From a virus: a stretch of DNA of 28,391 bases. Numbering within the stretch: the first letter of the stretch is position 1; each line of letters opens with the position of its first letter. The position numbers and the translations under genes were made by a program. Positions 3,001 through 26,124 of the stretch are shown here, piece by piece. The stretch covers positions 1-28,391 of IMG/VR virus record IMGVR_UViG_3300045049_000072. The stretch is one strand, 5' to 3'. The notes under the pieces were generated by a model that was not told the DNA's origin, did no database searches, and worked only from the letters and a program-made list of their open reading frames with translations.

Positions 3001-5803
3001 AAATTATTTTGATGCTGGGTCAGGTAACGCCTATATTCAAATTGATTTAGGCGAAATCTACATGATCGACCATATTACAATATGGCGCTACTATGCAGAT
3101 AATCGAGTGTATTCTGGAAATATCACGCAGATTTCTACAGATGGAACGAACTGGACAAATGTTTGGGACTATCATATAAATGGAACCTATATAGAAACAT
3201 CATCTGGTAATACTATCTACATGAATAGCGGAAATGGATGCGCACCTGTCAGATACATAAGGGACTGGATAAGCGGAAATAGTGTAGATAAAAACAATCG
3301 CTGGGTAGAAATCCAAGCATTCGGAGACTGGCAAGTAGAAAGTAAGTATGTATATCCTAGCGGAACCGCCCAAGCCGGTCAACAAATGGCTACAAATGGA
3401 CAAAGCGTTACAACTACAAGTATTCCGGGCGCGCATATAAGCTATACATTTGATGCTGAATTCACAACTTACTGGTGGGTAAGTTATTTAACTGGACCCG
3501 AATTTGGCTCCATGTATATTAGGATGCCAGATTTGATGTCACAGTCTCACTACCTATTTCTGACTAGTCCAGTTTACAATAAGGTCGCCCATAGACATTT
3601 AATGCCACTACCACCGGGGCAGCATACGGTACAAATCTTTCAAAACTCTGGCAAGATTTCTGTTGACCGTTTTAGATTTGAGGACTTCCAGTACTACACG
3701 AAGACATCAACGCTAATACCCAGTAGTAATAGTAGCTACTTTACTCAATATAAAATTATAGCTAATCAAGCTCAAAATTATATTGGCAAAGGAAGACAAT
3801 CGACATTTGGTGCGTTTGATACTCAAAGAGTAAATCCAAGTACAGGATTGCCAGATAACAGCGTTCCAATCAAATATAGACTTAGAGTCAAATCTGAGAT
3901 TATTGGCGATGGAACACAAAAACAAGGCACAACATATGTAACATCTGCAATTGTGGAGACTGGTAAGTTAAGTACTCATTGGAGAATGTCGGAGTCTGCT
4001 GAGCATATTCCGTTTACAAGAATGGAATCTTGGGACCCAATGAACCCAATGAAAACAGGCGTTCAGACAGATCATATTGCTGATGGAGCTATCCAAGGTA
4101 CAAAGCTAATGCCATTCTCTGTCATGAATTACCATATTAGTCCATATGCAAGAATTCCAGAATTCAAATTAGACCTGAATTTTCCGACAAAAGATTATGG
4201 CGGAATTAGCGGAAACTATGGAACTGGAAACACAGTTGCTAGAACTGACCATTTGCACGATGGAAGATACCTGATGGTTTCAGGTGGTGGAACAATCAGT
4301 GGGAATATTACAGTCAACAATTTGACTGTCACAGGCAATTCAACAATAAGCGGGAACGAAGTCATAAGCGGCACATTAACAGTTACAGGGAATGTCTATG
4401 TAACTGGAAATGTAACAACCAATGGAACAATTAATGGCATTAATATCGTAACCCTAAATACAACACTTAATAGCCATATCGGTGCTGGTGGCTCTGCTCA
4501 TGCGTTGGTTGTATCTGGCGGCTCTGCTGGTTTTATGTCTGGTGCTGATAAAGCCAAACTAGATGGAATTCAAAGTAGTGCTATTAATCAAACTACTGCT
4601 GATGGGAGATATCTGCAATTAGCTGGCGGCTCATTAACTGGAACGCTAACATCAAATAGTCCAATACAAATAACATCCCTAAATAACCCATTTAAGGTAA
4701 CAACATATTCGTCATCTAGCGGATATGCAAACTATGTTGCAGATTGGGCTTCTTCTAACTGGTGGGGAATCGGACCGAGAACAGGAGCCAACGATAGTAC
4801 AGTTCTAATAGGTCAAGTAAGTGCCAATTCGGGAACTTGGCTAACTTCTCAGCCTTCTATGGATTTATATATCGGTGCCAATAAAGTATGGCACTCTGGA
4901 AACATGGGGGCAGGAAGTGGATTAAATGCAGACCTATTAGACGGCCATGATTCAACCTACTTTGCCGCCGCCTCGACTGTTTACACAACAAGTCAGTCCG
5001 ATAGTCGATATGCACAGCTAAATGCTAACAATATCATGTCAGGTATCAACACATTCAATGCTAGTGCAAATGCGGTAGTGCTACAGCCTACAGTCTCAGT
5101 ACCTTCTGGAACAGTATTGTTTGCTCTTAATACTAGTGGTGGCTCCACTTTAATTACAATGGATGGCGCAGGAAATATGGTAGTAAAAGGTAACTTGACT
5201 GTTAGCGGTACTACTACATATTCTCAGACATCTACTTCATCTGGTAACTCTTCAATAAGCGGAGACTTGATAGTAAGCGGGAATTCGACTTTAGGAGCTA
5301 CTGGCGCGAGCCATTTAACCACAGTAAATGGCGATATGTATATCGCTGGCAACCTAAAACAGTCCGGTAAATATATGGAAGTGGCAAGAACGCCGATCTT
5401 TGGTATTGGCGGAGATGGCATGTTTTATTCTAACACGATCAGTGGTAACGAAGTCATAACTAAGCACTATAATACATTCTTAGCTGATGGTTCGTACTGG
5501 ATGCCAGCACCACAAACAGGTGCATCTAGGTACTATAAAGCATTGGTCATGTATTCAATTAGCGGCTCTGGAAACTCAGCAAATCTGACCGTTTATCAAG
5601 ACAATACATCAACGCAGCTAGCTAATATTCCATTACCTCAAGTATGGGGTGTAACTGATGGTTCTTATGTTAGATCGATACTTAGTTCGCCATTCCAAGT
5701 AGTCTCTTCTACTAATCATACTCAATGGGATATGACAAGCTTAAACGGTGGAGATATGGTAATAAAATATATTGAGTTAATTGCATACGACTATTATAGC
5801 TAA
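1..5803 (+). CDS. Large multidomain tail tip/adhesin protein (5' end outside window)
   Basis: The frame is open from nt 2, so the gene starts upstream and the first ATG at 89 is not its start. Seen in order: the C-terminal end of a PA14-like carbohydrate-binding domain (nt 2-170, ending LLEWKKP); Ala/Ile/Thr-rich repeats of the type AGSITGDxIxAGTIT (about 230-720), common in phage central tail-tip proteins; a YVTN-like beta-propeller (about 950-2100); a discoidin/F5-8C-like sugar-binding domain (about 2930-3330, with IQIDLG and VRYIRDW); and fibre repeats with HLHDGRYL and ADGRYLQLAGGSLTG motifs (about 4130-5350). There are Met/Asn/Gly-rich insertions near 1520-1560 and 2830-2880. It probably sits at the tail tip and binds cell-surface glycans. 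The domain calls come from sequence pattern; the receptor is unknown. A further fibre gene follows after 16 nt. Confidence 0.85.
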   Translation, partial: DNQVVVDGWSGNVGNTLSGTYSLSSGNWYMIRLDYYQTTGNASVLLEWKKPSDGAKSTIPAMYLTQANTTIDGGQILTNSISAASMKVGTITAASGILANASITTAVIADGTITHAKIGLGEIQTANIATGNITTALIQDASITNAKIASIDASKITAGYISAGIISGGTITGYMIAANTISGNNIAARTILTDNLQAGAVTATEIAAGSITGDRIQAGTITGDEIAAGSITTQHITTQGLDAQSISVYNSQTGQTLIGTGYVRVDGLDVGVVQSDNLLANGLFLTSSSMYGFRRSNNAGDSIYGQQPLISGSNQIWKYDLSGNTIVDKVTINGKRPAFMAIDETGTYGYVTTQGDNTLAQIDLVHDTVIQTLQMGTGPGRIKSNGDNKHMFVLNTDPSDMATPDSLFVIDRPPNSVSGGFYIHHELPLGNTPIDWVKIGNTAYITLADQGDIAILDISEYPSMNWKQVGSISIAPYMTDNYHGGLSAGFGLGEAVGGTSGDNYASGGMMMGMNMYGGGDGAVVKYTPKGIEVSSDNTMLYVADSTNGNLVIVSVSGYTGYVMQTVSLGGQPTFVKLVNGKVFVTLNGTAQVAVIDESAIMAMGTITPRFIDVGNGPFDMVADTTRGTSGYLYVSLSTDAQVAKIDVSSEMVVSKINAGPNTMGLAITPDSRYLWIVNNGNTGFQSFVYPSGNFIGDPYMGLEGDVVYQGADYWMPNRSDWIYDSNGDVQSYSLVEFHINEPLLNEGGYAKLVASGKDNQFAQIEQDIINVTNFSNGSNTASVQGEILTPSLSNVWSGGTNSGNATWFPKNTWLNSPVPSNILISGSNGSVITPSANQYTINYSPASITFSGGVVPSGSSILANYTYVPNVWFKNHNGSVLVATENGASNNFYTHFEIDELVPKFVVVDNLQTTPFTPTADGINQQYTGMGYSSMTNRVYGIGNMMLATGNMNMNVNMGYVNTVGSILMSGGSNTAYTGNTGSGNTSDITLVTDGITTSTNYFDAGSGNAYIQIDLGEIYMIDHITIWRYYADNRVYSGNITQISTDGTNWTNVWDYHINGTYIETSSGNTIYMNSGNGCAPVRYIRDWISGNSVDKNNRWVEIQAFGDWQVESKYVYPSGTAQAGQQMATNGQSVTTTSIPGAHISYTFDAEFTTYWWVSYLTGPEFGSMYIRMPDLMSQSHYLFLTSPVYNKVAHRHLMPLPPGQHTVQIFQNSGKISVDRFRFEDFQYYTKTSTLIPSSNSSYFTQYKIIANQAQNYIGKGRQSTFGAFDTQRVNPSTGLPDNSVPIKYRLRVKSEIIGDGTQKQGTTYVTSAIVETGKLSTHWRMSESAEHIPFTRMESWDPMNPMKTGVQTDHIADGAIQGTKLMPFSVMNYHISPYARIPEFKLDLNFPTKDYGGISGNYGTGNTVARTDHLHDGRYLMVSGGGTISGNITVNNLTVTGNSTISGNEVISGTLTVTGNVYVTGNVTTNGTINGINIVTLNTTLNSHIGAGGSAHALVVSGGSAGFMSGADKAKLDGIQSSAINQTTADGRYLQLAGGSLTGTLTSNSPIQITSLNNPFKVTTYSSSSGYANYVADWASSNWWGIGPRTGANDSTVLIGQVSANSGTWLTSQPSMDLYIGANKVWHSGNMGAGSGLNADLLDGHDSTYFAAASTVYTTSQSDSRYAQLNANNIMSGINTFNASANAVVLQPTVSVPSGTVLFALNTSGGSTLITMDGAGNMVVKGNLTVSGTTTYSQTSTSSGNSSISGDLIVSGNSTLGATGASHLTTVNGDMYIAGNLKQSGKYMEVARTPIFGIGGDGMFYSNTISGNEVITKHYNTFLADGSYWMPAPQTGASRYYKALVMYSISGSGNSANLTVYQDNTSTQLANIPLPQVWGVTDGSYVRSILSSPFQVVSSTNHTQWDMTSLNGGDMVIKYIELIAYDYYS

Positions 5804-9250: not shown

Positions 9251-11488
9251 ATGTTATTAAAAAAACAATTACTCAGTCAACAAAATTTAAACAATGCTTA
9301 CTTGTCTTTGATTAATACTCAGGCGCAGAGCATTCAGAGCAATTTAACTGTTAGCGGTGGAGCACTAACGCTGAAAACATCGTTATTTTCTGACAATGCA
9401 AATACGGGGCAGTTAAGAATTAGTCCTCAAGGAAATAACTTGGTTTTATACAATGGAGCAAGCAATCAGCAATTAAGTATATATAGTTCATCTGGAACAG
9501 AGAACACCTATATTACAACCATAAACCAAGCAAACAACCTATCGTATGGATTAATTGATGTAGCTGGCTCTAGTGTTGCTCAATTAAATATTAACTCAAA
9601 TAGTAATAAGCCAGTTTATTTTGGCGGAACAATTACACCAAACCCTGCTTCTTGGGTTGTGCCTAGTGGAACTACTACGCCTCCTGTTTTTAGGGCCATA
9701 GGACCAAGTAGCGATTTTAGGATAACTGTTCAGGATGGAAGCGCAAGATCGGCAATGACTTGGAACTCATATTGGGACAATGTGGCCGCACAACACAAAT
9801 ATATAGTAAGCAATGAACAGGCACTCAGACTGCAATTTGATTCCGTACTTGGGTTCGAGTTGTTAACAGCGACAACAGGAAATGCGAATGGCATAATCAA
9901 TTGGACAACTGGACTTGTAAATGGAATAGATGGAACTGTAAAAATAGGCACAACAACAGGATATAATGGTTCTTCTCTTGTTGTTTACAAATCGGGAGAC
10001 AATTGGCACACAACAATTGGTGATGTAGGTGCTGGTGTATTAAAGATAGGTGGAAATACCAACAACGGTGCCGTAATACAAGCATATAATCAGGCAACTA
10101 GTGCTGTGCGTGATCTGTACCTACAGCGAGACGGTGGTTATGTTGGTATTGGGACAAACTCTCCTGCTGGAAAATTCCATGTTGCAGAAGCCAATTATGA
10201 TTTAAAAACAGGTGGCGACCATTTAACATTACAATCAAATGCCAATATGACAACTACCTTCCCATACTTAGAATTTAGGAATAACTCTGGAACGAGGGGT
10301 ATGTTTTTAGGGTGGGGAAGTAATTCTGGAAAATATGTACAAATGACACTAGAAAACGGCTACAATTTAAACATTAATGGTGGGAATATAGGCATAGAAA
10401 CAAGTAGCCCAGAAAATTCAGAAGGATGGTATAGAGTTATCGATCTACTCGGCGTTGGAAACGCTAAATCTTCTGTTCGTACTGCAAATATCGACTCTCG
10501 AATTATGGTACATGACTCCGGTTGGTTTGGTGCCCCTTCTGGAATGATTATAGGAACAAAAACCAATCATGCGGTGTCGATTGCAACCAATGCATCTAGT
10601 AGATTGACCATTAGCACCGCTGGGAATTTAGGTGTTAATACAACTTCACCCGCCACAAAGTTGCATGTGTACACTGGAGCATCAACTACAAATGATGGTA
10701 TACTAACAGCTTCGCCTAATAAGAGTCTATATATGCTTCCCGATGTAGCGACAGGCTCATACAACCAACTCAATAATGGCGGCGGTCAAACCAGCATTGT
10801 ATATGCCAAGCAATCTGCCGATGATATAAATGGAAATATATTTACCATTGCTCCTTGGTCGGGTTATAACGGCGGTTTAAGTATGAACGGTCAAGGATTT
10901 ATGAATGCAGGAACATTTAGACAAACAGTTATTCCTTTAACTGGCGGGGATGGCCCTTGTCTGTTTGGTAACTTAGATAATCACTATGCTTGGCTACTCC
11001 AAGGCGGCGGCTTCATGTACTTTAAATTTAACAATATTGGCCGATTAACTAATGGCACAACTGGTAGGCCGATGACTTGGGTAATAGGTATCGTTTGTAA
11101 CAATGGCTCGCCGTATGACGGTGCAACAATTCAAATTGCCTATAATAGTGGATCAGGTGGATGGTATAAAACTGTTAATATGACAGGAACTATTCCAACA
11201 TCATCATTGGGTACAGTTAAAGTATTGACTGCTACTGTAAGTGATTTTAATCCATCAGCCATGCAGAACCTTGGGGCAGACTGGCGAATTAATTCACCCG
11301 CAAATCCAGCAAATGGGAATTTTGGAGTTATATTTGCTGTTATGTATGATAGCTGGACAGACTGCTTCCATACATTTGAAGCATATCCCGGCGCGGCTGG
11401 CCCTTATTGGAGTAGAATAGCTGGTCAGTGTAACGCAAGGGGAGCAAGAATGGTGATCCCCGTAGGAACAAATATGTATGCATCATAA
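9251..11488 (+). CDS. Tail fibre protein with GIGTxSP repeats
   Basis: This is a 745-aa fibre protein. It carries at least three copies of a motif typical of long phage fibres and other trimeric beta-structured proteins: YVGIGTNSPAGKFHV, NIGIETSSPENS and NLGVNTTSPATKLHV, spread over about residues 295-480. The N-terminus (LLSQQNLNNAYLSLINTQAQS) is helical and could be the attachment end. The C-terminal about 200 residues are a distinct Gly/Trp-rich domain, probably the receptor-binding tip. No intramolecular chaperone (S74-type) domain is evident. The ribosome binding site is weaker than its neighbours (AAGGCAGGTGAT, well upstream of the ATG). It is the last gene of the tail unit; a strong terminator begins at its stop codon. 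Confidence 0.78.
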   Translation: MLLKKQLLSQQNLNNAYLSLINTQAQSIQSNLTVSGGALTLKTSLFSDNANTGQLRISPQGNNLVLYNGASNQQLSIYSSSGTENTYITTINQANNLSYGLIDVAGSSVAQLNINSNSNKPVYFGGTITPNPASWVVPSGTTTPPVFRAIGPSSDFRITVQDGSARSAMTWNSYWDNVAAQHKYIVSNEQALRLQFDSVLGFELLTATTGNANGIINWTTGLVNGIDGTVKIGTTTGYNGSSLVVYKSGDNWHTTIGDVGAGVLKIGGNTNNGAVIQAYNQATSAVRDLYLQRDGGYVGIGTNSPAGKFHVAEANYDLKTGGDHLTLQSNANMTTTFPYLEFRNNSGTRGMFLGWGSNSGKYVQMTLENGYNLNINGGNIGIETSSPENSEGWYRVIDLLGVGNAKSSVRTANIDSRIMVHDSGWFGAPSGMIIGTKTNHAVSIATNASSRLTISTAGNLGVNTTSPATKLHVYTGASTTNDGILTASPNKSLYMLPDVATGSYNQLNNGGGQTSIVYAKQSADDINGNIFTIAPWSGYNGGLSMNGQGFMNAGTFRQTVIPLTGGDGPCLFGNLDNHYAWLLQGGGFMYFKFNNIGRLTNGTTGRPMTWVIGIVCNNGSPYDGATIQIAYNSGSGGWYKTVNMTGTIPTSSLGTVKVLTATVSDFNPSAMQNLGADWRINSPANPANGNFGVIFAVMYDSWTDCFHTFEAYPGAAGPYWSRIAGQCNARGARMVIPVGTNMYAS

Positions 11489-11511
11489 AGAAGGGCAATT
11501 TCCCTTCTTTT
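11487..11511 (+). terminator. Intrinsic terminator of the tail module
   Basis: A perfect 9-bp stem AAAGAAGGG (11487-11495) pairs with CCCTTCTTT (11502-11510) around a 6-nt loop, with a short T run at the base. It overlaps the stop codon of the last tail fibre gene and lies just before the next promoter, so it separates the tail and HxD transcription units. Confidence 0.85.
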
Positions 11512-11518
11512 ACGTACC

Positions 11519-11547
11519 TTGACTTTATATTATATTTATGATATAAT
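11519..11547 (+). promoter_or_regulatory. Sigma-A-type promoter of the HxD/radical SAM cassette
   Basis: TTGACT (-35, 11519-11524) and TATAAT (-10, 11542-11547) are separated by exactly 17 nt. A 9-bp inverted repeat, ATATTATAT (11527-11535) and ATATAATAT (11541-11549), spans the spacer and overlaps the -10, so it could be an operator, though AT-rich chance pairing is possible. AAGGAGG at 11557-11563 precedes the ATG at 11570. A reading frame that starts at the TTG inside the -35 would be wrong. Confidence 0.85.
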
Positions 11548-11569
11548 ATTATATATAAGGAGGATACCT

Positions 11570-12118
11570 ATGTCGATAAACGGCTCAATATGGATTGATA
11601 GTGCAAGTGGAGCTTTTTGTTTTATAAATGATTCTAATACACAAATATCAATCACAGGAACAAGCCAAGGAACAATTGCAGGAGCAATTCCGGGCAGCAT
11701 ATGGATTCAAGGTGAAGACTTTCATTATATAGATGCACAAAACAATCACAGGATCATTTCTAGTAGCGCTGTTACAACAATCTCAGGATCAATTCCCGGC
11801 AGTTTATGGGTCGAGAGCGGTGCATTAAAATATATAAGTGCTAGCAATACAAAAAGAACTGCTGGTGTACATACTGATACTCATAGCGATTCAAGCCATA
11901 GTGACGGTACAACTCATGGTGACAGTAGTACTACACATTATGATTGGACAAATACTGGACATAGTGATTCAAGCGGATATTATTCAGATGGAACACCTTG
12001 GCATTTTGACGCTGTTTATGCGCATACGGATACACCGGGAAGCCACTATGACAATTCTTCTGTACACTATGATAATGGAGTAACAAGTCATTCCGATAGC
12101 CATACGGATCACTACTAA
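11570..12118 (+). CDS. HxD-repeat protein, putative radical-SAM-modified precursor
   Basis: This is a 182-aa protein that starts at ATG 11570 with a perfect AAGGAGG 6 nt upstream. The N-terminal half has three diverged copies of a 35-37-residue beta-type repeat beginning GSIWID (residue 5), GSIWIQ (42) and GSLWVE (77). The C-terminal 82 residues (101-182) are almost only His, Asp, Ser, Thr, Gly and Tyr and contain twelve His-x-Asp motifs (His 101, 105, 110, 116, 123, 131, 145, 152, 159, 166, 174, 178) plus one degenerate YSD. The only Cys is C17. It is first in a promoter-driven unit and is followed after 17 nt by a radical SAM/SPASM enzyme, so it may be the modified substrate, with the repeat half as leader or structural base. 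Alternatively it could be a tail protein binding metal through HxD. No family was recognised with certainty. Confidence 0.72.
   Translation: MSINGSIWIDSASGAFCFINDSNTQISITGTSQGTIAGAIPGSIWIQGEDFHYIDAQNNHRIISSSAVTTISGSIPGSLWVESGALKYISASNTKRTAGVHTDTHSDSSHSDGTTHGDSSTTHYDWTNTGHSDSSGYYSDGTPWHFDAVYAHTDTPGSHYDNSSVHYDNGVTSHSDSHTDHY
11870..12115 (+). repeat. Twelve-fold His-x-Asp motif region
   Basis: This region codes for residues 101-182 of the HxD protein. Successive HxD motifs are spaced 4-8 residues apart in the first half, with one 14-residue gap bridged by a YSD variant. Three consecutive intervals are exactly seven residues (145, 152, 159, 166). The x position is S, T, Y, G or F. The DNA copies differ in codon use, so the repeat is held at protein level and is not a recent DNA duplication. 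Confidence 0.85.
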
Positions 12119-12135
12119 AGGAAAGGAAGATAAGA

Positions 12136-13329
12136 ATGGGACACAGTATTAAAAATACAATTGAATGCAATATGGGATGTACATACTGCTATGAATCAAC
12201 ATCACGAAAAAGCAACAAGCGTAATGGAGTACAGCTAGGATACAATGTAGATAAGATTATTGAGTTTATTGAAAACGAAGATAACAATGTGCTTCGTTTT
12301 CCTAATTTGCATGGTGGTGAGCCACTATTAACACCAAAGGAAGAAAATGAAAAATTACTTAAATATATATATGAGAAGTTCGGAGAAACCAGTATTCAAA
12401 CTAATGGCATTCTTATAGACCAAGATTATATTGATATGTTTAAAAAATATAATACGCAAGTTGGAGTAAGTATTGATGGTCACGAAGAACTAAATGACGG
12501 TCGATGGATGGGGAGCTTGGAAAAAACAAGGGCTACCACAGCTAAAACAATTGATAATATTAAATGGATGAAGCGAGAAGGCATTAGGGTTGGTCTTATT
12601 ATTGTCGTTAGCAAGAAAAATGGAACAAAAGAAAAGATCGAAAAACTACAAGAGTTCTTACTTATGATGCGAAGTATCGGTGTTAATGGAGGACGATTAA
12701 ATCTTATTGAACTTGACTTTCCTGAGCTAGCAGATGAGCTAGAGCTTAGCAAAGAAGATGCTATCTATTTCCATAGAAACATGCCTAAATTTTTGCGCAA
12801 AAATGGATTGCGATTTGCACCGTTTACCGATGTAGTTGATGCATTGCTTGGATATAAGCATGGAACATGTGTAACAAAACAATGTGATCCATTTCATACT
12901 TTAGGAGAGCAACCTATTTATGGAGATGGAACAAAGGGAAATTGTCTAAGAACTTCTAAAGATGGAGTTCTCAACCTTGCAGAAAATGTGAAGGGTATTA
13001 ATCGAGTATCAAATGAAAGATATTCAATTTTAAGGCAGATACCTATGGAAGAAGGCGGTTGTGGAGGTTGTCGTTACTGGTCAATCTGTAGCGCACACTG
13101 TCCCGGAACAGCAGAAGATGGAGATTGGAGAAATAAGACTTCGCATTGTGCCATATATAAAGCCATGTTTGAAGAGACAGAAAGAGATTTGAAGCAGATG
13201 TTGCCGGGACTTAAATTAACAACAGAGCATCCAGAAGTTCCACCGCAACAAATGTTTGATCTTATTAATAGCGGGATAGCTAGTGTTTATGTGTTTAGAG
13301 GAATGGCAGAGAATAGGAGTGCTTTTTAA
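12136..13329 (+). CDS. Radical SAM enzyme with SPASM domain, likely peptide maturase
   Basis: This is a 397-aa protein with an ATG start behind AAAGGAAG at 12122-12129. The radical SAM cluster motif CxxxCxxC is C11, C15, C18. HGGEP at 59-63 is the SAM-binding GGE motif, followed by QTNG (89) and SIDG (112). A full SPASM signature is present: C250, then G265 and C270 (Gx4C), then C309, C312, C318 and C322 spaced Cx2Cx5Cx3C, then C338. SPASM enzymes use extra FeS clusters and typically modify peptide side chains in RiPP and quinohemoprotein-type pathways. The gene follows the HxD protein by 17 nt and overlaps the next gene by one base (TAATG), so the three are co-expressed. The enzyme class is very secure; substrate and reaction are inferred. 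Confidence 0.93.
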   Translation: MGHSIKNTIECNMGCTYCYESTSRKSNKRNGVQLGYNVDKIIEFIENEDNNVLRFPNLHGGEPLLTPKEENEKLLKYIYEKFGETSIQTNGILIDQDYIDMFKKYNTQVGVSIDGHEELNDGRWMGSLEKTRATTAKTIDNIKWMKREGIRVGLIIVVSKKNGTKEKIEKLQEFLLMMRSIGVNGGRLNLIELDFPELADELELSKEDAIYFHRNMPKFLRKNGLRFAPFTDVVDALLGYKHGTCVTKQCDPFHTLGEQPIYGDGTKGNCLRTSKDGVLNLAENVKGINRVSNERYSILRQIPMEEGGCGGCRYWSICSAHCPGTAEDGDWRNKTSHCAIYKAMFEETERDLKQMLPGLKLTTEHPEVPPQQMFDLINSGIASVYVFRGMAENRSAF

Positions 13330-14168
13330 TGGAAAGGGAAGTCCACAATATTACAGTTCCATATTTAGTTAGATTCTCATGGGCTACTGGTGAGGCCATG
13401 AGACAATGGGATGATAAGCTTCTAAATAGTAGAATATTTTTACAAAATACTCTGCCAAAGCTCATTGTTGACAATGGTTTTGCAAAATTTGCTCCAATTA
13501 TTCCATTGGAAGATGAAGAATTTAGCCATGTAGCAGACGCATTTATCGCTAGCTTCTACAATTCTAGATGGACAACGGACTACGACATTATTCGTAATAT
13601 GGGCGACAGAACATTCCCTGCTCAGTTATATGGTAACTACGAATGTGATTTTGATTTGAGCAACAGATGGGATATTTATCGTGATCTGTGGCAACTAGCT
13701 CTTGCCCCTGAGTGCTGTAAGAAAGCGTATTTTGATAGTCCATACAAAGACCCGTATCATCATCTTTATGATTCGGCGGCGGGGAAAATTAAAAAACTTC
13801 CAAGTATAGGAATGAATTGTTTGCTAGCGCCAATAGGGTTTTATGTTAGCCCAATTGTTCCATGTTCAATAGAATGTAAACATGCCCATACTAGATCAAT
13901 GATGATTGAAGAACTAATTATGCAAGCAGACTACGGTATTTATGAAACATTAAAGATGTTAATGGAAATGCCCGTTAGAATTGACAGCTACAGGGGAATT
14001 TCGCTAGTAGATACTCCTATGTTTAAAGGGGAATTTACTACTGACGCATATAAAGGCAAATATATTTTAGATGTGAAAGTTAAAAATCCTGAGCTATTCA
14101 GCTATGAACATGATTGGGTTGCAAAAGGAGCCAGATTTCCATTCAAGGGCATCTTTAATTTGTCCTAA
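13329..14168 (+). CDS. Unknown Cys-containing protein coupled to the radical SAM enzyme
   Basis: This is a 279-aa protein whose ATG overlaps the radical SAM stop codon, suggesting translational coupling. It has no signal peptide or membrane segment. Cysteines are at 106, 129-130 (APECC), 164, 179 and 183 (VPCSIEC). The arrangement PxCC, then an NxLL stretch, then PCSxxC recalls the DUF483-like group from memory, but I cannot confirm this. The cysteines could bind metal or an FeS cluster. Position suggests an accessory or partner of the maturase: a second modifying enzyme, precursor-binding factor or delivery protein. An independent phage function is also possible. Confidence 0.6.
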   Translation: MEREVHNITVPYLVRFSWATGEAMRQWDDKLLNSRIFLQNTLPKLIVDNGFAKFAPIIPLEDEEFSHVADAFIASFYNSRWTTDYDIIRNMGDRTFPAQLYGNYECDFDLSNRWDIYRDLWQLALAPECCKKAYFDSPYKDPYHHLYDSAAGKIKKLPSIGMNCLLAPIGFYVSPIVPCSIECKHAHTRSMMIEELIMQADYGIYETLKMLMEMPVRIDSYRGISLVDTPMFKGEFTTDAYKGKYILDVKVKNPELFSYEHDWVAKGARFPFKGIFNLS

Positions 14169-14203
14169 AGAAGTTTTTGTATCATAAGGAGGTCGGCAAT
14201 CAA

Positions 14204-14560
14204 ATGTGGATTAAGCTAATAAATACTACTGTCATTCCAAACCAAGAATTGATTCTAGATGAGAATTTTTTGTTGCAGTGTGATTACAGGGTTAATTCTA
14301 TAAAAAGAGCTGTCATTGCATGTATGAGAATATTAGATTTAAGTAACTCTGATACCCTTGAGACAAAGATCAAAGATTTTATTAGCCTTGAGGATTTTAA
14401 AATTGAACTATATTCTGGTGATGCAGTGGTTAAGTCGTTTAGAGGGTGTTTTAGTAATTATTTTATACAAGACACATCAAATGGAATAGTTGAAAGGGCA
14501 GAGTTTACAGCGGGATTTAAAAATATAGACGGTGCTCTTGTTCAGCAGTCGGGAGGGTAA
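14204..14560 (+). CDS. Small phage protein of unknown function
   Basis: This is a 118-aa protein. The ATG at 14204 is chosen because AAGGAGG lies at 14186-14192; a TTG at 14177 in the same frame sits upstream of that site. It looks like a mixed alpha/beta soluble protein with three Cys and no membrane segment or signal peptide. It lies between the radical SAM-linked gene and the lysis genes. It could belong to either cassette, or be a small tail protein. No family was recognised. Confidence 0.7.
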   Translation: MWIKLINTTVIPNQELILDENFLLQCDYRVNSIKRAVIACMRILDLSNSDTLETKIKDFISLEDFKIELYSGDAVVKSFRGCFSNYFIQDTSNGIVERAEFTAGFKNIDGALVQQSGG

Positions 14561-16600: not shown

Positions 16601-16630
16601 TTGACAAAATTGATATAATTCAAGTATAAT
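16601..16630 (+). promoter_or_regulatory. Sigma-A-type promoter of the phoH-like gene
   Basis: TTGACA (16601-16606) and TATAAT (16625-16630) are 18 nt apart. A second TATAAT lies in the spacer at 16614-16619, 11 nt before the true -10. The start codon is about 90 nt downstream, leaving a long untranslated leader. Confidence 0.85.
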
Positions 16631-16694: not shown

Positions 16695-16722
16695 AAAATT
16701 TTAAACATTAGGAGATGTGCAT

Positions 16723-18084
16723 ATGAATGTTGTAGTATTTGACACTAACGCACTTATTGATGACCCAAAAGCACCGCTAAGACAAGAGAACACATTAGTA
16801 GTCATTCCAAGAATTGTAATTGAGGAACTAGACAAACTAAAAACCGGAAGAGATGCTAATGTTCGCAGAATGTCTAGAGTTGCTTCTGATGTTATTGATG
16901 AAATTTCTGAGGCTCATGAAGACAAGCTTGAAATGCCAATTGGTCAAGGCAGCTATCTTAAGATTGAGAGCGGCATGACAAAACAGTTTGAATCTAGTGA
17001 GCCTGATAAGCCAGATAATATGATTATATCGGTTGCCCTTGGTTATGCACAACAAGGACATCGTGTTATCCTATATAGCAATGATAGGAATGTTCGTGTG
17101 TTTGCAAGGCAAATTGCTAAGGATTATTTCCCAAGTCAACTTTCAGACCTGCCATTAAAAGCAAGAGCGTATGAAATTGTTGATAGCTCTCTACATGACA
17201 TTGATAGCGGTGTCCGTGAACTATTGCTTCCAGATATGGATGTAAACATTCTTAGAAAGAATGGCTTTCATAATATCGAACTACCATATATTAATGGTGA
17301 GCATATCATGGTGCGAAGCCAAACAAATGAAAAGAATACCGCATTGGCAGTTTGGGACAAGAGACAAAATAAAATTCTTAATCTGCCCGACTATAAAAAA
17401 GGCGAACCTATTTGGAGAATTGGCGGCAATAATCCCGGTGCAACCGATGTTCGCCCAAGGGATGCAAGACAATCTTTCTTGATTCATGACCTTATGGACA
17501 CATCAAAAAATCTGCACTTCGTATTGTCTCGCGTAGCTGGTGCTGGTAAAAACTTTATCACTACTGCTTGCGCACTAAGATTGCTTAAAGACATGGAATA
17601 TGACCGCTTGATTATTGTCAAGCCTATGATTGCTGTCGATGGTTCTGATACAGGTTACTTGCCGGGAACGAAAGAAGAGAAGATGGCACCTTGGTTCGAA
17701 TCGTTTAATGATACAATCACAGAGCTTACAAATGATAGAGGACTGACAGCCGATTTAGAAGCTCGCATTGAGCTTGATATTGTTACTCATATGCGTGGTC
17801 GTAGCATTCCTAGAACACTTCTTATTATTGACGAAGCACAGAACTTCTCGGAGGATGCACTAAAGACATTAGGTTCGCGTGCTGGTGAAGGGTCTAAAAT
17901 TGTACTAATGGGAGACTTGTCGCAAATTGACAATCCAAGACTGGATGCAGGGAATACTGGATTGCGCGTATGGGCTGAGCGCGCCCGTAATAAGGAGTTC
18001 GGTTATGAAAATTCTACATATATCTTGCTTGACAGCAACTTCCGTAGTGAGCTTTCAGCTTGGTTCTCATCATTCTACGAATAA
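16723..18084 (+). CDS. phoH: PIN-PhoH family ATPase/RNase with altered Walker A
   Basis: This is a 453-aa protein. The ATG at 16723 is 8 nt after AGGAG; a GTG two codons earlier is too close. Residues 1-150 are a PIN nuclease domain (VVFDTNALIDDP at the start, IEELDKLK at 33-40). Residues 250-453 are the PhoH ATPase domain with Walker B LLIIDEAQN (366-374) and PhoH-typical LPGTKEEKMAPW (313-324). PIN-PhoH proteins are linked to RNA unwinding and cleavage, and PhoH proteins are frequent in phages. The P-loop reads RVAGAGKN (270-277) instead of the usual GxAGTGKT: the first Gly is Arg and the Thr/Ser after Lys is Asn. The gene has its own promoter and structured leader. Confidence 0.88.
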   Translation: MNVVVFDTNALIDDPKAPLRQENTLVVIPRIVIEELDKLKTGRDANVRRMSRVASDVIDEISEAHEDKLEMPIGQGSYLKIESGMTKQFESSEPDKPDNMIISVALGYAQQGHRVILYSNDRNVRVFARQIAKDYFPSQLSDLPLKARAYEIVDSSLHDIDSGVRELLLPDMDVNILRKNGFHNIELPYINGEHIMVRSQTNEKNTALAVWDKRQNKILNLPDYKKGEPIWRIGGNNPGATDVRPRDARQSFLIHDLMDTSKNLHFVLSRVAGAGKNFITTACALRLLKDMEYDRLIIVKPMIAVDGSDTGYLPGTKEEKMAPWFESFNDTITELTNDRGLTADLEARIELDIVTHMRGRSIPRTLLIIDEAQNFSEDALKTLGSRAGEGSKIVLMGDLSQIDNPRLDAGNTGLRVWAERARNKEFGYENSTYILLDSNFRSELSAWFSSFYE

Positions 18085-18123: not shown

Positions 18124-18147
18124 TATTATGAAAGGCGTGTGTGTGCC

Positions 18148-18510
18148 ATGCAGGAATATGATATCAGAGGTAAGCTATGTACAGCCGATATGTACGGCGT
18201 AAACAGGCTACTTCTTGATAGCGAACAATATTTAATTGAGCAATTAATCGAGGCCGCAAAAATCAGCGGCGCGACAGTTCTTAAAGAACAATCTGTTAAA
18301 TTTAAACCAACGGGCGTAACGGTTGCGTGTATTTTATCGGAGAGCCATATCACCTGTCATACTTATCCAGATAGGGGTTTTATTGCCGTTGATTGTTACA
18401 CATGCGGAGAACATTGTGATCCTGAGAAAGCAATCGAATATTTGGCGCTCGTATTGTGCCCTTCTGATGGCATGGACAAAGAAGTAATTATTAGGGGTAA
18501 GAGGACATAA
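18148..18510 (+). CDS. speD: SpeD-type pyruvoyl-dependent decarboxylase (AdoMet decarboxylase family)
   Basis: This is a 120-aa protein, the usual size of the short bacterial SpeD/SpeH class. The ATG at 18148 follows AAAGG (18131-18135). The self-cleavage motif SESH is at 64-67; cleavage between E65 and S66 would form the pyruvoyl cofactor. The three key residues known from Thermotoga AdoMetDC (Ser63, His68, Cys83) are matched by S66, H71 and C86 with identical spacing. The family makes decarboxylated S-adenosylmethionine for spermidine synthesis, but some phage SpeD homologues decarboxylate ornithine or arginine instead, so substrate is open. It could adjust polyamines for DNA packaging or translation. 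Confidence 0.9.
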   Translation: MQEYDIRGKLCTADMYGVNRLLLDSEQYLIEQLIEAAKISGATVLKEQSVKFKPTGVTVACILSESHITCHTYPDRGFIAVDCYTCGEHCDPEKAIEYLALVLCPSDGMDKEVIIRGKRT

Positions 18511-25376: not shown

Positions 25377-25454
25377 ATGAATACAGTTTTATATGCTAAG
25401 AAGAGAGATAAGCCACTTATTATGATCGACCCAAGGAGCTATGAAAATGTTTGA
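25377..25454 (+). CDS. Possible 25-aa leader peptide before the methyltransferase
   Basis: This small frame has an ATG with GGGAG at 25364-25368 (8-nt spacing) and ends at 25454, overlapping the start of the methyltransferase gene by a few codons in another frame. Its sequence (MNTVLYAKKRDKP and onward) is basic and matches no family. It fills the only gap between helicase and methyltransferase and could couple translation of the latter. Evidence is ribosome binding site and position only. Confidence 0.4.
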   Translation: MNTVLYAKKRDKPLIMIDPRSYENV

Positions 25455-26124
25455 AGAAAACACAATATATAACATGAATTGTATGTATGGGCTACCATTC
25501 ATTGACGATAGCTCAATTGACTTGATTTTAACAGATATACCATATGGCAATGTTACTAGAAACGGTGAAGAGAGAGCTAGATACGGTGGTCAACTAAGAA
25601 GCATGGATAAGGGCGGTGCCGATTTAGAGACATTTAACCTTTATGAGTTCTTAGAACATTGCTATCGTGTAACATCGGGAAGTATTTATATATTTTGTGG
25701 TATCGAGCAAATGTCAGAAATATTCGCCTATTTTGACGCGAAAGAAGATATGACAGCCCGACAGTGTCTATGGCATAAAACAAATCCATCTCCTGTTAAT
25801 GGTCAGCATTACTGGATTCATTCAGTTGAAAATTGTGTGTTTGCCAAAAAGCGTAGAACAACATTTAACAGGCATTGTCAACATAATGTATGGAATTTCC
25901 CTGTCGGCAGAAGTAAACGACACCCAACAGAAAAGCCATTAAAACTTTTTGAGTATCTTATCGAGAGTTCTACTAATGAGGGAGATATAATTTTAGACCC
26001 ATGTATCGGAAGTGGGACAACGGCGGAAGCGGCTGTAAGGCTTAATCGCAAGTTTATTGGTTTTGAAATCGATGATAATTATTTCAATGTTGCTACTGAG
26101 AGAATTAAAGCATTGGAGGTATAG
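25447..26124 (+). CDS. DNA methyltransferase, beta-class amino-methyltransferase
   Basis: This is a 225-aa protein. ATG 25447 is preferred because AAGGAG (25433-25438) is 8 nt upstream; ATG 25441 lies only 2 nt from it. Motif IV TDIPYGN (29-35; DIPY in place of the usual DPPY/SPPY) comes before HPTEKP (159-164) and motif I DPCIGSGTT (184-192), the beta-class order of N6-adenine and N4-cytosine methyltransferases. Fold ends with FIGFEIDDNYFNVA. No endonuclease partner is adjacent, so it is an orphan enzyme, probably protecting phage DNA from restriction or marking replicated DNA. Target base and site cannot be read from sequence. Confidence 0.9.
   Translation: MFEENTIYNMNCMYGLPFIDDSSIDLILTDIPYGNVTRNGEERARYGGQLRSMDKGGADLETFNLYEFLEHCYRVTSGSIYIFCGIEQMSEIFAYFDAKEDMTARQCLWHKTNPSPVNGQHYWIHSVENCVFAKKRRTTFNRHCQHNVWNFPVGRSKRHPTEKPLKLFEYLIESSTNEGDIILDPCIGSGTTAEAAVRLNRKFIGFEIDDNYFNVATERIKALEV

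Follow-up and report, generated by a model that had tools for sequence, protein, structure and literature searches.

The 28,391-nucleotide viral contig IMGVR_UViG_3300045049_000072 (the window), a fragmentary IMG/VR record, encodes a protein ending in a series of histidine-containing repeats immediately upstream of a radical SAM/SPASM enzyme. This arrangement raises the questions of whether the repeats are the substrate of the enzyme, which reaction it might catalyze on them, and what use a phage might have for the product.

Gene neighborhood in the window

The genes of the window are ordered as tail proteins, a three-gene unit comprising the repeat protein, the enzyme and a DUF483-like protein, and then lysis and replication genes. 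The same genes recur in a near-identical contig, IMGVR_UViG_3300044683_000029, their proteins being 100% identical. The features of the region are as follows:

9251..11488, + strand: tail-fiber-like gene upstream of the unit, 745 aa (PHROG tail fiber protein match, E 2e-6)
11453-11485, + strand: C-terminus of the 745-aa fiber, RMVIPVGTNMYAS (VIPVGTNMYAS), resembling the C-terminal motif found near most short repeat proteins
11487..11510, + strand: hairpin 3' of the fiber gene, possible weak terminator (fold -11 kcal/mol, z -4.6)
11519..11547, + strand: promoter-like TTGACT-17-TATAAT with extended TG (11/12 positions match; consensus only)
11570..12118, + strand: repeat-protein gene, 182 aa (P0001), the proposed substrate (from translation), with homologs in Thermus phages
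11570..11869, + strand: N-terminal domain of P0001, three G-S-x-W-x-x...Y-I copies (from alignment), predicted folded beta domain
11870..12115, + strand: repeat stretch of P0001, with 12 H-x-D, one Y-S-D and one W-T-N, lacking confident predicted structure
12136..13329, + strand: radical SAM/SPASM enzyme gene, 397 aa (P0002; Pfam Radical_SAM E 7e-18; invariant cysteines)
13329..14168, + strand: DUF483-like gene, 279 aa (P0003), its start overlapping the enzyme stop by one base (Pfam DUF483 E 3e-4)
14177..14560, + strand: 127-aa protein after the module, for which an ATG at about 14204 is the likelier start

The first-pass annotation of this DNA had credited the unit with a strong promoter of its own and a terminator upstream. 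The promoter-like site indeed matches the consensus closely, but such sites are no commoner in the window than in shuffled sequence (28 found against 29.5 expected). The T run at the hairpin is short, and a consensus terminator scan did not list the structure; its role as a terminator downstream of the fiber gene is plausible, not certain.

Elsewhere in the window, a perfect TTGACA-18-TATAAT promoter-like site (16601-16630) precedes the gene of a PhoH-like ATPase with an N-terminal PIN domain (16717-18084). A phage-encoded S-adenosylmethionine decarboxylase lies downstream of the unit (18139-18510; AdoMet_dc E 2e-30), and an N6/N4-type DNA methylase (25441-26124) is apparently unrelated to it. 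By eye, the 127-aa protein that follows the module looks like the N-terminal part of a protein encoded a short way past the module in locus L008.

Components of the module

The repeat protein starts with an ATG at 11570 and stops at 12116-12118, and of the 13 His among its residues 101-182, 12 belong to H-x-D motifs. In 100,000 shuffles of this stretch H-x-D occurred on average 2.0 times, at most 8 and never 12, which rules out that the motifs arise by chance from a composition rich in D and H; translation and shuffling are thus in agreement with the earlier description of a 182-aa protein with twelve HxD motifs. The additional Y-S-D and W-T-N share the identical i/i+2 spacing. AlphaFold2 modeled residues 1-100 with pLDDT above 90, and the repeat stretch acquired no confident structure. 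Structural look-alikes of the N-terminal domain were weak (LlpA lectin, Z 5.0; choline-binding repeats) and were set aside.

The enzyme gene begins 17 nt past the stop of the repeat gene and is intact to its end. The encoded protein contains the cluster motif C11-x3-C15-x2-C18 (4Fe-4S; nucleotides 12166-12189) and, in the SPASM region, the cysteines C245, C250, C270, C309, C312, C318, C322 and C338, all of which are invariant over 32 relatives. It thereby shows the arrangement of radical SAM/SPASM peptide maturases (Cx3Cx2C; CX9-15GX4C ... CX2CX5CX3C ... C), which resembles that of the anaerobic sulfatase maturase, and this maturase is also the solved structure nearest to it by sequence. Translation, cysteine motifs and the Pfam match hence agree with the initial call of an intact enzyme of this class, and it is the only radical SAM match of this kind in the window. 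The top NCBIfam ranks were sulfatase maturase and the cyclophane or peptide maturases AmcB, DynA and YhhB, all far below cut-offs; with GrrM, XyeB and FxsB likewise far below the curated values, the enzyme falls in no named cyclophane maturase family. Most of its relatives end in a short H-x-D tail of their own, often approximating HGDHxD (e.g. L006:5974-7422 and L150:5974-7995, the enzyme of L150 having up to 24 H-x-(D/N) counted), which could possibly be a self-substrate or a docking tail; such a tail is absent from the window enzyme.

The unit had first been read as the repeat gene plus the enzyme. Both are present, but a third conserved gene, which had been missed and whose start overlaps the final base of the enzyme stop codon, also belongs to it. 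Its product scores 21.2 bits against Pfam DUF483 (PF04467; gathering score 25), and 20 of 27 homologs match the same family at E up to 0.01. These proteins keep P-x-C-C (C129, C130) and P-C-x3-C (C179, C183) as invariant alignment columns. A C-terminal methyltransferase domain is present in about 19 of the 27 homologs and absent from the window protein. The AlphaFold2 model is of moderate confidence (pLDDT 80), and neither Foldseek nor a second structural search recovered a PDB match for it.

Linkage of the repeats, the enzyme and DUF483 across viruses

Among 50,697 phage records, near full-length close relatives of the enzyme were recovered only from the Thermus phages phiLo, Cumys and phiMa (35-37% identity). 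Two of these, phiMa and Cumys, share the gene order of the window: a 342-343 aa protein having the N-terminal domain of P0001 and 53-54 H-x-D is encoded directly ahead of the enzyme, and a DUF483 protein directly behind it. In phiLo the enzyme and DUF483 genes adjoin, and the repeat gene, with 72 H-x-D, is found about 3 kb away on the opposite strand. When the viral collection was searched with single proteins, only the near-identical contig was retrieved, and further relatives required profiles; for these, alignments A3 and A5 proved too diverse, and the closer subset A7 worked. Profile searches with the enzyme alone then recovered 80 distinct loci, nearly all viral, the closest relative being L008 (58-61% identity).

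Loci were judged only where enough flanking sequence was available, and a repeat protein was counted if it had at least six H-x-(D/N). In this set, chosen by enzyme similarity alone, such a protein is present in 70 of 74 loci with enough upstream sequence, and DUF483 in 70 of 75 with enough downstream sequence. The four loci without H-x-(D/N) repeats are L012 (an 8-kb contig grouping with phiLo), L063 (a contig end), L160 (the most distant enzyme, with no repeat protein in its available stretch) and L120, which has repeats of another composition (see below). Both the repeat protein and DUF483 are missing from the more distant radical SAM loci that fall outside the family (L043-L060). The reverse search with the N-terminal domain alone gave 30 loci, two of them cut by contig ends; repeats are present in 27 of the 28 judged, every time together with the enzyme. 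The remaining one, L186, encodes a natural repeat-less N-domain protein with no enzyme alongside, which implies that the enzyme follows the repeats and not the N-terminal domain. This L186 protein (3053-4309) is tail-like and ends in the G-S-x-W domain.

The loci share ancestry, so these counts represent non-independent events. The three-gene module recurs in many unrelated bacterial viruses, and the proposal that the two genes belong together, which would have failed had they been unlinked in relatives, is borne out in both directions. Of the 399 genomes belonging to the class around L062, the seed genome was the sole match, so cells rarely carry the module. Several phages possess two to five repeat genes; in L087 (1-5908, five) and L098 (520-5908, four) different repeat proteins stand in a row before one enzyme gene. 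In L008 (2913-7994) and L062 (7137-8572) the repeat genes are flanked by six and two tandem paralogous putative Fe/2-oxoglutarate oxygenases, respectively, which belong to PHROG 1843 (function unknown) and are assigned by a W-H-x-D ... H-R ... R signature; no convincing PDB match was found for them, and none is present in the near-identical contig of the window phage.

Sequence pattern of the repeats

Motif statistics were collected over 91 repeat domains (17,506 residues). Of 3020 His, 2951 (98%) have D/N at +2, Ser being rare in this position. Independently of His, D/N is also found at +2 of 63% of F, 43% of Y and 40% of W, as against 6% of other residues pooled, and only about 10% of F/Y/W have it at +1, +3 or +4 (Fisher p for the +2 enrichment 6e-199 and 2e-113, with relatedness ignored). 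The rule of the repeats is aromatic-x-(D/N), and the HxD named initially is its commonest form. The extreme case is L120 (4169-5959), a 596-aa protein with the same N-terminal domain and C-terminal end, consisting of almost pure Phe-x-(Asn/Ser/Gln) repeats: 94 of its 98 Phe fall in F-x-N (35), F-x-S (29), F-x-Q (26) or F-x-D (4). L092 likewise has many F-x-N repeats, and one proposed substrate, in L009, has up to 93 His sites.

Comparisons of relatives agree with this pattern. Between phiMa and Cumys the motif His and Asp are unchanged (53 codons each), whereas 11 of the 89 linker codons differ. Among more closely related pairs, with 491 sites aligned, Asp-Asn exchange is frequent, and x and the linkers vary while H and D stay. 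Losses of His are few, and those that keep the D/N lead to F (2), Y (1) or R (1); given the small number of events and the alignment artefacts considered, these replacements lend minor support only.

Contextual associations with tail proteins

In the window the repeat gene comes after the fiber genes and before the lysis genes, and in other phages it lies among structural genes. Seventeen loci encode the repeats as part of a longer fusion, with 400-860 aa of mostly tail-like protein attached, and two of the fused proteins scanned have a laminin-G domain and virion-protein matches. On the enzyme tree, repeat-fiber fusion requires at least two to three changes. Furthermore, of the 48 loci with a short repeat protein, about 36 encode a neighboring protein, in most cases upstream, whose C-terminus has a motif of the approximate form IPVG-T-N/D-K-W/Y-A; the motif occurs in none of the 17 loci with the fused form (a regular-expression match in L120 on the wrong strand was excluded from the count). 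It was found in 0 of 968 control ORFs, which come from 27 control loci only, so that it could be common in fibers generally. Baseplate_J was absent from the 35 records searched.

Gene position, laminin-G fiber fusions and the fiber-tip motif together point to the repeat protein being a tail-tip protein, and we infer from the sequence relationships that its N-terminal domain would dock on the fiber tip. The product is likely to reside at the tail tip and to aid adsorption or stability. Of the two locations suggested at the outset, the tail fits the fusions, the fiber neighbors and the tip motif, and a lysis-related one fits less well.

Proposed mechanism and alternatives

Given the two-way linkage, the best-supported reading, as had been put forward at the start, is that the radical SAM/SPASM enzyme modifies the phage repeat protein, and the repeats are very probably its substrate. 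Characterized cyclophane enzymes join residues i and i+2, linking Trp, Phe, Tyr or His at position 1 to the C-beta of Asn, Asp, Ser, Arg or Ala at position 3 (PMC11002830). Since the phage repeats obey this rule, with the same residue interchange, crosslinking appears to be the most economical reading, and by this analogy a cyclophane crosslink is a reasonably likely reaction. The absence of an evident leader peptide, recognition domain or protease counts against it, as do the scores of the enzyme below the cut-off of every named cyclophane maturase. In such a mechanism the module would serve virion maturation, with the repeat protein as a tail-tip appendage: the N-terminal domain would dock on the tail fiber, or in other phages the repeats would be fused directly to it, and the enzyme would act on the flexible C-terminal repeats. 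At each aromatic-x-(Asp/Asn) the C-beta hydrogen of residue 3 would be abstracted and this carbon joined to the ring of residue 1 (by analogy with characterized enzymes, at His C2, Tyr C3, Phe C4 or Trp C6/C7), so that three-residue cyclophanes would follow one another in a rigid chain. As a constant partner, the DUF483 protein might be a substrate carrier, an electron or metal partner, or the catalyst of a second modifying step.

The product had been conceived as cross-linked, epimerized or oxidized; the i/i+2 rule favors the crosslink, and other changes of the Asp/Asn make up the main rival. In this alternative the enzyme might carry out C-beta oxidation or hydroxylation, dehydration or epimerization, the aromatic residue being only a recognition mark. 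Several such reactions are performed by SPASM enzymes, the sulfatase maturase with the closest solved structure oxidizes C-beta, and putative 2-oxoglutarate oxygenases lie beside the module in L008 and L062. However, strict i/i+2 spacing combined with His/Phe/Tyr/Trp and Asp/Asn/Ser/Gln interchange fits ring-to-C-beta crosslinks better, and this alternative seems unlikely. A different possibility is that the enzyme serves something else and that the H-x-D repeats form a metal-binding tail tip, comparable to metal-binding HxH fibers. His and Asp are natural metal ligands, and the window protein has 12 such motifs. Yet aromatic-x-(D/N) is the substrate rule of the enzymes that form triceptides, which argues against metal binding, as does the strict pairing of the repeats with the enzyme; moreover, Phe, on which the repeats of L120 almost wholly and many of those in L092 are built, cannot ligate metal like His. 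A metal-binding tip is accordingly very improbable.

The two remaining alternatives place the product outside the tail. Similar enzymes mostly have secreted peptides as their precursors, and the repeat protein could by this token be a bacteriocin-like or host-directed product acting outside the virion. Examples of such secreted precursors have been described (PMC11002830). The 17 fusions to mostly tail-like proteins, two with laminin-G, stand against it, as does the lack of a transporter or protease in the loci examined, and this possibility appears quite improbable. Modification of the phage DNA by the enzyme and DUF483 protein, as proposed for Cumys, draws on that published suggestion, on cyanobacterial homologs near deazapurine genes (both PMC11437467) and on the methyltransferase domain of many DUF483 homologs. 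Nonetheless, the enzyme tracks the repeat protein both ways, including the L186 control, and the module genes are located among tail genes, making a DNA-directed function highly improbable. Poly-cyclophane crosslinking of the phage tail tip by the enzyme-DUF483 module hence appears to be the best overall explanation, which we hold with moderate confidence on these comparative grounds. A more extended proposal is that of a widespread and hitherto unrecognized class of virus-encoded radical chemistry on virion proteins: in diverse kinds of phage, a dedicated radical SAM-DUF483 pair would stiffen the flexible tail-tip repeat into a rod made up of tens of three-residue cyclophanes in succession, with hydroxylation or methylation added in some cases. 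This proposal might hold or fail with about equal probability.

Relationship to known systems

If the crosslinking proposal is correct, viruses encode radical enzymes of their own with which the tail tip is covalently hardened or shaped, this group of DUF483 proteins gains a function, the DNA-modification guess for the Thermus phages is overturned, and dozens of new enzymes apparently accept His, Phe, Tyr and Trp sites. No description of such a virion modification in any virus was found in the open-access literature. Separate proteins or repeats at fiber tips are known from T4-type adhesins (gp38) and metal-binding HxH tips, but no covalent crosslinking is proposed for these, and metal ligation cannot be what unites the phage repeats, since some of them are built on Phe.

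Part of the candidate undescribed system of the first-pass annotation was already on record: the pairing of the enzyme with DUF483 in Thermus phages was noted in a 2024 paper in Viruses, where these two together with a protein of unknown function form the 'rSAM module' of Cumys and phiMa (PMC11437467). The module and the phages are the same; in the part of that paper considered here, DNA modification is suggested and the repeats receive no mention.

The HXS system (HxsA/B/C/D), previously taken as the closest known pattern, similarly pairs a SPASM enzyme with a protein having His every few residues. It differs from the viral module in that the third position of the phage motif is Asp/Asn and the window has a single such radical SAM gene, where HXS combines HxsB with a second radical SAM, HxsC, and with HxsD; the enzyme scores 50 bits against HxsB (cut-off 370), and no HxsA match was found in the window. 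While the pairing of repeat protein and SPASM enzyme is shared with HXS, the closer chemistry is that of triceptide cyclophane formation. Triceptide precursors are short, with a leader, cleavage and export genes, whereas the proposed phage substrate is tail-associated, with a folded 100-aa N-terminal domain, up to 93 motifs and no such genes beside the module in the loci examined; the DUF483 partner and an enzyme outside the named families are further differences. Fe/2-oxoglutarate hydroxylase partners are known for some triceptides, a likeness to the putative oxygenases of L008 and L062. In the triceptide (3-CyFE) systems, namely XncB, OscB/GrrM, MscB, YxdB, HaaB and YhhB, a SPASM radical SAM enzyme is likewise encoded beside an aromatic-x-X3 gene with His/Tyr/Phe/Trp at position 1 and Asp/Asn/Ser at position 3, and the phage repeats display the same fixed i/i+2 relationship.
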